Origin: Cyanobacteriota bacterium
GTDB taxonomy: Bacteria > Acidobacteriota > Vicinamibacteria > Vicinamibacterales > UBA2999
Assembly (NCBI GenBank): GCA_019752015.1
Contig: JAIEMQ010000037.1
Location: 1-64,000 of the forward strand
Length of the DNA: 64,000 nt
Direction: 5' to 3'
Below the pieces are notes generated by a model that made no database searches, was not told where the DNA came from, and saw nothing but the letters and a program-made list of their open reading frames with translations. Position numbers and translations under genes: made by a program. This document shows positions 5,461-8,320 of this stretch, one piece after another; the first letter of the stretch is position 1, and every line of letters starts with the position of its first letter.

Positions 5461-7071
5461 TCAGTGACGGAAATGGCGGCGGCCGGTGAACACCATCGCG
5501 AGACCGTGTTCATCCGCCGCCGCGATCACTTCGGCATCCTTCAGTGATCCGCCCGGCTGCACGACGGCGGTTGCACCGGCGGCGGCAACCGCGTCGAGCC
5601 CATCGCGAAACGGGAAGAAAGCATCCGAGGCCGCAACCGATCCTTTGAGCAATGGCGCGGTGCCGTTTTTCCAGCCGCCGGCCTTGTTCACCGCCACCTG
5701 TACCGCATCGACACGGCTCATCTGCCCCGCGCCGATCGCGAGCGTGCGAACGGCGTCGGTGAAGATCACCGTGTTCGACTTGACGTGCGCCATCACGCGC
5801 CAGGCAAAGCGCATCGCCTGCCATTCATCCGGCGTCGGCTGACGCTTCGTCACGACTTTGACGGCGTCCGACGGCCACGGCAGCTGCGCTTCGCTGACGC
5901 GATCGCGCTCCTGCACCAGCATGGCGCCGAGGATCGATCGATACTCACGGCGATCGGCGAGCTTGCGGAAGTCGGCAACGACAACGCGCAGGTTGGCTTT
6001 TGAAGCGAGGATCGTCCGCGCAGTGTCTTCCACATCGGGCGCGACGACGCATTCGATGAAGGTGGAGACGATTGCTCGAGCGGTCTCTTCATCAAGCTTG
6101 CGATTCAGGCCGATGATGCCGCCGAACGCCGCGAGCGAATCCGCTTCGCGCGCGCGCACATACGCCTCCGCGATCGATGCCCCGGTCGCCACACCGCATG
6201 GATTGGTGTGCTTGATCACCGCCGCGGCCGGCTCGTCGAACTCGAGGACAATGCGAGCGGCGGCGTCGAGGTCGAGGAGATTGGTGAACGAGAGCTCCTT
6301 GCCTTGCAGCACCGCGGGCTTACCGAGACCCGCGGGCGGATCGAGCGCGTACCACGCCGCGGGCTGGTGGGGGTTTTCTCCGTACCGGAGGTCTCTCAGT
6401 TTCGCAGCGCGGATCGCCAAGGTGCCCGGGTGCCCGGGTGCCTCGGTGCCTGGGTGTTTGGGTGCCGAGCGGATGAACTCGTCGCCTTCCACGTTGATCT
6501 CACCCAGCGTAGATGCGATCGCCGTGTCATATGCGCCGGTGTGTTCGAAGGCGCGGCGCGCCAATTCGAAACGAAACGCAGCCGTCGGACCGTCGTCGAG
6601 ATCAAGTTCTGCGATCACGGCGTCGTAATCCTTGGGAGAAACGACGATCAGGACGTCGCGAAAATTTTTCGATGCGGCACGGACAAGGCTCGGGCCACCG
6701 ATATCAATTTGTTCGATCAGATCGTCAAATTTGATCCCCGGCTTCGCAGCCGTTTCAACAAATGGATACAAATTGACGACCACGAGATCGACGAGGCCGA
6801 TACCGTGCTGTCGGGCAAGCTCCAAATCGTCGGGATGTGAGCGCCGCGCGAGGATGCCGCCGTGAATTTTGGGATGAAGGGTCTTGACCCGGCCATCCAT
6901 CATCTCGGGAAAGCCGGTCACATCGCTGACGTTGACGATCGGGAGGCCGGCGTCGGACAGCGCCTTCGCGGTGCCGCCCGTGGAGACGAGCTCGAAACCA
7001 CGCGCTGTCAGCGCTTTACCGAAATCAACCAGGCCGGTTTTGTCAGAAACACTCAGAATCGCACGCCGCAT
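5461..7071 (-). CDS. purH: Bifunctional AICAR formyltransferase / IMP cyclohydrolase PurH
   Basis: The 536-residue PurH carries out the last two steps of de novo purine synthesis: formylation of AICAR, then closure to IMP. The N-terminal cyclohydrolase domain (MRRAILSVSDKTGLVDF, ELVSTGGTAKAL) and the C-terminal transformylase domain (LRYGENPHQPAAWY, the KHTNPCGVA motif, RDGLDAVAAAGATAVVQPGG) are intact. Just before the RYGENPHQ motif there is an insertion of about 16 residues, KHPGTEAPGHPGT, encoded by a tandem 8-bp repeat at 6421-6468; the family normally has a short linker there. The frame is preserved because six units make 48 bp. Confidence 0.95.
   Translation of the reverse strand: MRRAILSVSDKTGLVDFGKALTARGFELVSTGGTAKALSDAGLPIVNVSDVTGFPEMMDGRVKTLHPKIHGGILARRSHPDDLELARQHGIGLVDLVVVNLYPFVETAAKPGIKFDDLIEQIDIGGPSLVRAASKNFRDVLIVVSPKDYDAVIAELDLDDGPTAAFRFELARRAFEHTGAYDTAIASTLGEINVEGDEFIRSAPKHPGTEAPGHPGTLAIRAAKLRDLRYGENPHQPAAWYALDPPAGLGKPAVLQGKELSFTNLLDLDAAARIVLEFDEPAAAVIKHTNPCGVATGASIAEAYVRAREADSLAAFGGIIGLNRKLDEETARAIVSTFIECVVAPDVEDTARTILASKANLRVVVADFRKLADRREYRSILGAMLVQERDRVSEAQLPWPSDAVKVVTKRQPTPDEWQAMRFAWRVMAHVKSNTVIFTDAVRTLAIGAGQMSRVDAVQVAVNKAGGWKNGTAPLLKGSVAASDAFFPFRDGLDAVAAAGATAVVQPGGSLKDAEVIAAADEHGLAMVFTGRRHFRH
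6421..6468. repeat. Six 8-bp tandem repeats inside purH
   Basis: Consecutive octamers GGTGCCCG, GGTGCCCG, GGTGCCTC, GGTGCCTG, GGTGTTTG and GGTGCCGA lie within purH and encode its extra HPGT-rich linker on the minus strand. The unit closely matches the intergenic octamer array at 57061. Confidence 0.9.
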
Positions 7072-7137
7072 CGACCGGCAACCTCATGAAATCGAAAGAA
7101 ACGCGAAAACCCAACGTTATGGATCGGATTTTCTGAA

Positions 7138-7167
7138 TTGACACCAAATGTAACGGCCCAGTATCAT
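7138..7167 (+). promoter_or_regulatory. Predicted sigma-70-type promoter upstream of cspA
   Basis: TTGACA at 7138-7143 and TATCAT at 7162-7167 are separated by 18 bases. The predicted transcription start is near 7174, which would give cspA a 5' leader of about 140 nt. Confidence 0.65.
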
Positions 7168-7193
7168 CCCCGCAGTCCAGTTCTGCGGACCAG

Positions 7194-7219
7194 AAGGCCG
7201 CACGTTGCGGCCTTTTTTT
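7194..7219 (+). terminator. Terminator-like hairpin within the cspA leader
   Basis: A perfect 9-bp stem (AAGGCCGCA / TGCGGCCTT) with a CGT loop is followed by seven T residues. It lies only about 20 bases after the predicted start of transcription and about 95 bases before the cspA ATG. A second small stem, CCGCAG/CTGCGG, precedes it at about 7170-7187. Confidence 0.75.
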
Positions 7220-7312
7220 GTTGCCCCAGCTCATCCACCTCATTGAGAGGCGCTGGGCGCGGGGTAGTTCAGTACGGTGGCGACGAGCCACCAGTAAGAC
7301 AGGAAGAGAACG

Positions 7313-7519
7313 ATGCGTATTACAGGCAAGGTCAAGTGGTTCAACAACGCCAAGGGCTACGGTTTCATCGAGCGCGAAGGCGGCAGCGATGTGTTCGTTC
7401 ACTATTCGGCGATTCAGGGCGCCGGTTTCCGTTCCCTCGAAGAGGGACAGCCGGTTGAGTTTGAAATCGTCGATGGTCCCAAGGGTCCGCAGGCCGGCAA
7501 TGTGACCCGCGCCGCCTAG
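7313..7519 (+). CDS. cspA: Cold-shock domain protein
   Basis: A 68-residue CspA-family OB-fold protein. The RNP1 motif [15 protein letters not shown] and RNP2 motif DVFVHYSAI, which bind single-stranded RNA and DNA, are complete. Such proteins act as RNA chaperones in the cytosol, in the cold or constitutively. AGGAAGAG upstream of the ATG is a clear Shine-Dalgarno sequence, unlike many genes in this window. The long leader with an early terminator-like hairpin suggests regulation after transcription initiation. A stable hairpin follows the stop. Confidence 0.93.
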
Positions 7520-7536
7520 TCCACCTCTTGATCCAG

Positions 7537-7564
7537 CCGGTGCCGGGCTCCCTCCCGGCACCGG
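7537..7564 (+). terminator. Hairpin after cspA
   Basis: Perfect 11-bp stem CCGGTGCCGGG / CCCGGCACCGG with a 6-nt loop, 18 bases after the cspA stop. Only a weak T-rich tail follows, so termination efficiency is uncertain. Confidence 0.6.
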
Positions 7565-7573
7565 ATTCGTTCT

Positions 7574-7636
7574 CAATCCGCAATCTGCAATCCGAAAACT
7601 TCAATCTGCAATCTGCAATCTTCAATCTGCAATTTA
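7574..7636. repeat. Heptamer array, unit CAATCTG
   Basis: Nine consecutive 7-bp units, most of them CAATCTG or one base different (one unit, AAAACTT, is diverged). The last unit, CAATTTA, contains the stop codon (TAA on the minus strand) of the gene ending at 7634. Confidence 0.85.
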
Positions 7637-8320
7637 TTCATCCTTCACCGGCGTCACGGTCAGCTGTACTTTGCCGTCTTTCATCGCGACCTTGAACGTC
7701 ACGTCCTGGCCCTCTTTCTTGAACTTGTCGACCTGCGCCTTCACGAGCGTGGCGAGCCGATCGATCGGCACCGCCGCCTCGCCGGCTTTCTGCTTGGCGG
7801 CGCTCAGCTGCTCGTGCAGTTGCCTGACGTGATCGGAGTCCTTGGTCGCGACCTGGTCTTTCTTGAACCGAATCAGCGACGGATCGATGCCCTCGACCTT
7901 TTCCCGCGGCGGCGGCACCAGCGGCGGTGCCGATTTCGCCGGTGACGCGCCCGCGGCAGCCGCGGCGGGCTGATCGGTCTGTTCCGGCTCCTTCTTTGGT
8001 TCCGGGACCGGCTCCGGCTTGCGCGCGCCCATCACCGGACGACCGAGCTCGCGGTTCGTCATCTGCCGCTCCCACAGCTCGATGAATTTCTGGAAGCGGT
8101 TCTGCAGCGAGTCGAACCGGAAGCGATCCGCGGTGTTGCGAATGTAGGAGTTGTCGATTTTCTTGACGAGCGCCGTGACGCGGGCGCGCGTTTCCCATGG
8201 CGGACGCGGCAGGCGCCCGGCGAAGAACATGTTGAACTCGGCTTCGAGGCGGCGGATCTCCGCCTCGAGGATCAGCATCTCTTTTTCGAAGTCCGATTTT
8301 GGCTTGACGAAATCCGGCAC
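7634..8320 (-). CDS. MXAN_5187 C-terminal-domain-like protein
   Basis: The 228-residue protein has an N-terminal helical domain, about residues 10-95 (EIRRLEAEFNMFFAGRLPRP … RFRFDSLQNRFQKFIELWER), that resembles the MXAN_5187 C-terminal domain known from myxobacteria and acidobacteria. A proline/alanine-rich linker (about 100-150) follows, then a second small helical and beta domain. There is no signal peptide. Function is unknown. The stop codon lies inside a heptamer repeat, and the gene upstream on the same strand ends three bases before it. Confidence 0.65.
   Translation of the reverse strand: MPDFVKPKSDFEKEMLILEAEIRRLEAEFNMFFAGRLPRPPWETRARVTALVKKIDNSYIRNTADRFRFDSLQNRFQKFIELWERQMTNRELGRPVMGARKPEPVPEPKKEPEQTDQPAAAAAGASPAKSAPPLVPPPREKVEGIDPSLIRFKKDQVATKDSDHVRQLHEQLSAAKQKAGEAAVPIDRLATLVKAQVDKFKKEGQDVTFKVAMKDGKVQLTVTPVKDE

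Follow-up and report, generated by a model that had tools for sequence, protein, structure and literature searches.

In the window, that is, the whole stretch of 64,000 nucleotides that was analysed, a cold-shock gene that we call cspA lies at positions 7313–7519 on the plus strand. It encodes 68 amino acids with a single cold-shock domain (68 codons, 7313–7516, followed by the stop codon). The product matched the NCBIfam CspE, CspC and CspA models with E values between 1e-26 and 1e-30 but in each case fell short of the curated cut-off, and was therefore assigned to the cold-shock family but not to a named orthologue. A terminator-like hairpin 3' of the gene, called by our scan at 7535–7566 on the plus strand with a score of 27.7, is probably the end of the cspA mRNA. 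Directly 3' of cspA, at 7574–7633, the 7-base unit CAATCTG is repeated in tandem in 8.6 copies, and the six near-matches to CAATCTGCAATCT in the window all fall within this stretch (0.06 expected). On the other side, purH occupies 5461–7071 on the minus strand (PurH models, E 1e-189 and 1e-207). Its frame contains a repeat of GGTGCCTGGGTGCCCG at 6421–6466, in 2.9 copies, which seems to encode a HPGTEAPGHPGT stretch of PurH and looks inserted in this housekeeping enzyme.

The leader of cspA begins with a sigma-70-type promoter, as had been claimed in the original prediction. This promoter, TTGACA-18-TATCAT at 7138–7167 on the plus strand, has 11 of 12 consensus matches, with the -35 box TTGACA at 7138–7143, a spacer of 18 bp and the -10 box TATCAT at 7162–7167. 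It is the sole sigma-70-type match in 6500–8000, where shuffled sequences gave a mean of 0.3. From the position of the -10 box, transcription of cspA is predicted to start at about 7172–7174, so that the whole leader would measure about 140 nt.

An intrinsic-terminator-like hairpin, P2, follows on the same strand at 7192–7219, as seen by scan, by folding and by terminator score. The prediction had described a terminator-like hairpin with a 9-bp stem and seven T residues; we found the T residues at 7213–7219, and the AAGGCCGCA/TGCGGCCTT core of the stem sits inside a hairpin of 11 pairs at 7192–7216. The 48 bases at 7172–7219 fold at -21.9 kcal/mol (z -3.7), and 0 of 200 shuffles were equally stable. 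With the d'Aubenton Carafa formula, P2 ranked first among the window's 11 candidates with a score of 56.5, versus 27.7 for the hairpin 3' of cspA. P2 is likely to give substantial termination. An RNA that begins at the predicted start and stops where the U-tract ends would have about 46–48 nt, in line with the roughly 45 nt suggested earlier. P2 could not be the end of an upstream gene on the plus strand, because its neighbour purH is divergent; among 82 related loci, 71 showed a purH start, divergent in every case, and the other 11 were short stretches of 520–542 bases.

Further elements were added to the original picture. A small first hairpin, P1, lies right where the transcript is predicted to begin (7171–7190, plus strand), as indicated by folds and by covariation across the order. 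In the window genome it has two alternative pairings, 7171–7175 with 7183–7187 or 7175–7178 with 7187–7190, and it is likewise weak, with two alternative pairings, in the window's own genus. Downstream of P2, the read-through part of the leader covers 93 bases (7220–7312, plus strand; fold z -2.9), where about 90 had been estimated, and ends at the ATG at 7313. Folding of these 93 bases predicts the hairpins P3 (7222–7266) and P4 (7273–7296), and a Shine-Dalgarno-like AGGAAG was recognised by eye at 7301–7306, all on the plus strand.

The combination of promoter and terminator is rare. When both strands were scanned, the one at cspA was the sole such pair in the window. The pattern TTGACA-N16-19-TANNNT-N20-50-T6 had one match in the 5.92-Mb genome, namely the cspA leader, and none in the control.

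Conservation of the leader

In order to follow the leader among relatives, we scanned the upstream regions of 49 cspA loci. These comprised 38 loci from the family, where a close cspA orthologue was present in 38 of 43 genomes (one being a fragment), and 11 others, 5 of which repeat family loci. A promoter followed by a terminator-like hairpin was found before cspA in 46 of the 49 loci; of 44 distinct ones, scanned over 230 bases, 41 had it, and none of 40 x 44 dinucleotide shuffles did. The three exceptions lacked a terminator call. One of them (L029) keeps the hairpin, by eye, with altered stem letters and has lost the U-tract; the other two are L067 and L068. Two further families of the order, f3 and f4 (L218–L221), have CspA proteins that are 92–94% identical and promoters with 10–11 of 12 matches, and no terminator was called in their leaders. 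By eye, the f4 leaders keep P1 and have a shorter hairpin with a broken U-tract, and loss or weakening of the terminator is possible in L218–L221. Since no call was made in L218–L221, L029, L067 and L068, the terminator appears to be dispensable in some lineages. A set of 30 csp upstream regions, from 15 of 16 genomes searched, includes several paralogues, and most belong to proteins clearly further removed from this CspA; the promoter–terminator order occurred in 3 of them (L223, L229 and L232). Even inside the order the terminator is thus not universal.

We then used a covariance model of P1 and P2 (R1), built from 13 leaders of relatives. At E<=0.1, R1 matched in 99 of 162 genomes of the order Vicinamibacterales, and 63 of 162 had no match at this threshold; in at least 5 of the 99 (G003, G006, G008, G017 and G061) a match lay away from cspA. 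The 52 match places examined, 51 outside the family and 1 inside, represent the better-scoring end (E up to 0.0073). A csp gene lay directly downstream at 45 of these 52 places, and 44 of the 45 showed the full promoter–terminator order, with L206 failing the scan. At the remaining 7, no csp gene was present in the stretch, and to the eye they resemble ordinary terminators or coding sequence; a contig end cuts one of these stretches. Neither of the two other csp-like genes of the window genome had a convincing R1 match: L002 gave a single minus-strand R1 match of 11.6 bits (E 0.46) and L003 gave none.

In a sample of the phylum, R1 matched at E<=0.01 in 20 of 297 genomes, 12 inside the order and 8 outside. 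At the 8 outside places no csp gene was near the match in the stretch examined, and on inspection by eye the matches resemble ordinary terminators or coding sequence. This absence outside the order is weak evidence, as filtering was stricter in the phylum search, which failed to recover even the window's own leader. Among 69 usable csp upstream regions from other phyla and classes (L069–L138, with L122 left out because its contig start leaves no upstream sequence), a promoter and a terminator were found in 4, namely L071 and L073 from Methylomirabilota, L074 and L098, with 0 in 20 shuffles of each; L074 has a weak promoter match, and the hairpin called there is close to the start codon. A terminator-like hairpin with no called promoter was present in L090 and L118 (Terriglobia), in L130 and L132 (Gemmatimonadetes, Gemmatimonadaceae) and in L075, L127 and L129. 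In eight of these loci (L071, L073, L074, L090, L118, L129, L130 and L132) the hairpin stands about 50–110 bases before the csp start codon.

Among the 78 distinct related leaders, the promoter spacer is 17 bp in 43 and 18 bp in 35, T-runs of 6–9 occur in 75, the terminator score exceeds 0 in 76, and the U-tract ends 45–123 nt (median 56) after the predicted start. Exactly two hairpins were found in 38 of 41 leaders folded singly, and three in the remaining 3, whose first segments are longer. In L043, L055, L056, L162 and L177 the segment from promoter to P2 has 65–100 bases, compared with the usual 22–38; here promoter and P2 are kept, and extra, partly strongly folded sequence is apparently located inside P1 or between P1 and P2.

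Covariation was assessed in an alignment (A5) fitted to the covariance model, with column shuffles that ignore relatedness. In 75 rows, including two that are not leaders (L040:1689-1739 and L038:242-313), 90% of cells were paired against 77.5% after shuffling, and 18 of 20 pairs had changed on both sides. Without these two rows (73 leader rows, 72 distinct), the hairpins were counted separately. In P1, 84% of cells were paired versus 64% in column shuffles, and 10 of 11 pairs had double changes; shuffles averaged 7.5 such pairs, and 2 of 300 attained the observed count (kinship ignored). In P2, 96% of cells were paired versus 92.5%, and 6 of 9 pairs had double changes, where shuffles averaged 1.3 and 0 of 300 attained this count (kinship likewise ignored). 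The excess over shuffles was seen only in the order-wide set, and none was found in 13 close relatives. Independently of any alignment, the P1 segments fold better than shuffles (n=74, mean z -1.71, 76% below -1), and related downstream leaders of at least 60 bases also tend to be structured (mean z -1.23, n=54). Taken together, the comparison makes it nearly certain that the P1–P2 leader is a real, conserved element, and the promoter–terminator leader evolved and did not arise by chance.

Probable read-through and its possible control

Whether cspA could be transcribed from a promoter beyond P2 was addressed by a scan for sigma-70-like promoters with at least 8 of 12 matches between P2 and the ATG. 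None was found in the 78 distinct leaders, and the window has no sigma-70-type promoter after P2 within 6500–8000, so that a downstream cspA promoter of this type was rejected. Moreover, the gap between the U-tract and the ATG can be as short as 22 bases. In four leaders of one family (L168, L169, L170 and L172) it is 22–23 bases, which places the ribosome site immediately after the terminator. From the missing second sigma-70-like promoter and these short gaps it follows that transcription of cspA probably passes only through P2, and a start downstream of 7219 is unlikely. The order expected of an attenuator, in which a promoter is followed by a terminator and then by the gene with no other sigma-70 promoter, is thus what the sequence contains. 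Early termination versus read-through, the frame in which the locus was originally described, gains support from the conserved succession of promoter, hairpin and U-tract. The short RNA and regulated read-through, perhaps by temperature, had been put forward as alternatives, and here our reading differs, as the comparative data fit both arising from one promoter.

We further searched 75 leaders for antiterminator pairing between the arms of P2 and either P1 or the downstream leader. No conserved pairing was detected (mean z -0.26 to +0.37), and the best duplexes were no better than those of shuffles. In the window genome, TGCGGACC could pair with the 5' arm of P2 at -9.8 kcal/mol, but with a z of only -0.9, and this candidate was also discarded. 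An antiterminator exclusive with the terminator, as in a riboswitch-type leader, was accordingly not seen in these leaders. ATG was missing from 67 of 78 terminated RNAs, and ATG, GTG and TTG were all missing from 18 of 78; in the window's terminated RNA, TTG is the only possible start codon. The 67 RNAs lacking ATG make a conserved leader peptide unlikely by this count of start codons. Because no antiterminator pairing was found, control, if any, is probably exerted by a protein, perhaps CspA. With a leader peptide also unlikely, what is left is either a terminator with a fixed damping effect or control by a protein that binds the hairpins as they emerge. The chances that read-through at P2 is regulated seem about even to us.

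Comparison with known systems

Neither the window nor six relatives gave a match at gathering score to any Rfam family, the cspA family included, and the cspA thermoregulator family, which we take to be RF01766, had no match up to E 5 in 7100–7340. Sub-threshold matches to the leader belonged to unrelated plasmid and sRNA families, with E values of 0.3 or worse. The claim that this leader differs from that of E. coli cspA was right.

Attenuators of the PyrR and TRAP type have an intrinsic terminator in the leader that is controlled by a protein, with read-through into the gene. The present leader resembles them in its terminator and read-through, and differs in that a conserved antiterminator pairing was not found here.

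The E. coli cspA leader, of 159 nt (PMC6239172), is likewise a structured csp 5' leader of similar length to the roughly 140 nt predicted here. Unlike it, the present leader has an intrinsic terminator about 46 nt from the start and no Rfam match, and the first decision in this leader would therefore be a transcriptional one. For B. subtilis, point mutations in the cspC 5' UTR are reported to change expression, and the relevant parts of that paper describe cold shock boxes, and not a terminator, in the cspB and cspC 5' UTRs (PMC8307031). We found no promoter–terminator order in the scanned Bacillota csp loci. In Agrobacterium, the cspA 5' UTR (C1_109596F) was first called a small RNA, according to the sections of PMC3738593 concerned with it; there, unlike here, the leader has 227 nt, occurs only within an mRNA of about 500 nt and is a homologue of the Rfam cspA family. 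A csp leader of the present kind was not described in the literature searched, which mostly left subscription journals outside.

Cold-shock proteins themselves are known to act on intrinsic termination in trans. Intrinsic termination is weakened by CspD in E. coli according to PMC9765468, which cites CspA, CspC and CspE for the same effect at metY-rpsO. For B. subtilis, PMC8307031 reports that in the absence of CspB and CspD read-through rose at man and lia but fell at pyr, the two proteins mostly favouring termination. These modulators are of the same protein family as CspA, and their RNA targets are of the same kind as P2. Where the two papers deal with termination, none of the targets they name (SgrS, metY-rpsO, man, lia and pyr) is a csp leader that carries a promoter-proximal terminator of its own.

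Discussion

Starting from the sequence elements and their conservation, we infer how termination in the cell, the setting of the CspA level and its possible adjustment may be connected. RNA polymerase would start at about 7172–7174 from the near-consensus sigma-70 promoter and make the small 5' hairpin P1, before reaching P2 and its U7 tract about 46 nt into the RNA. Some polymerases would stop there and release an RNA of 46–48 nt, while the remaining ones would read through the 93 leader bases and produce the cspA mRNA, so that the fraction reading through would set the CspA level. That the arrangement is kept across much of the order suggests that the leader probably sets the amount of cold-shock protein. 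We consider it fairly probable that P2 is a working promoter-proximal terminator which limits transcription of cspA, i.e. an attenuator; this estimate overlaps with two of the rival explanations below, the constant-factor terminator and the selected small RNA, both of which also assume a working terminator.

If the level is adjusted, an RNA-binding protein on the nascent hairpins would be the most likely agent, with CspA as the first candidate, since proteins of its family alter intrinsic termination in both E. coli and B. subtilis. Free CspA bound to nascent P1 or P2 might then change what fraction of polymerases gets past the terminator, about 46 nt from the start, and thus keep its own level steady. 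We offer this as a tentative model that is more doubtful than the attenuator itself, and the sign of any CspA effect here is not predictable.

It is somewhat less likely still that the terminator lowers cspA transcription by a constant factor with no regulation at all. Such a role would suit the failure to find a competing antiterminator pairing as well as the lineages in which the terminator is lost or weakened. Yet a weaker promoter would suffice for this purpose, whereas strong sigma-70-like promoters and tracts of U6–U9 are kept together and P1 is kept by paired changes. The short terminated RNA (about 46–70 nt, two hairpins) could instead be the main selected product, a trans-acting RNA or a decoy for cold-shock protein, with cspA expressed by leak. 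We hold this to be unlikely. A near-consensus promoter and a strong terminator would indeed make much short RNA, and features that termination does not need are kept in P1 and, as judged by eye, in the linker ahead of P2. But the element stands before csp in 45 of the 52 examined places, which fits a role in cis, the 7 other places and the 8 matches beyond the order look by eye like terminators or coding sequence, and the read-through leader is itself structured.

Least probable among the readings considered is that P2 is not a working terminator but a 5' stability element of the mRNA, a pause element or a feature at the DNA level. Hairpins at the 5' terminus can stabilise an mRNA, and L029 keeps the hairpin with its U-tract gone. 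Stability has no need of the T-runs of 6–9 found in nearly all leaders, though, and the scores are those of strong intrinsic terminators. We thus favour the attenuator.

A probable cspA attenuator was recognised in a mostly uncultured bacterial group. Regulatory RNAs have, to our knowledge, been little studied in Acidobacteriota, and P1–P2, as described by R1, is a candidate RNA family from this phylum that lies outside Rfam. A csp gene with a strong terminator in its own leader offers a direct test of autogenous control by termination. If free CspA did act on its own leader in this way, the cell would meter free cold-shock protein by termination, and this RNA family would be the transcriptional parallel to E. 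coli cspA, whose thermosensor works on translation.
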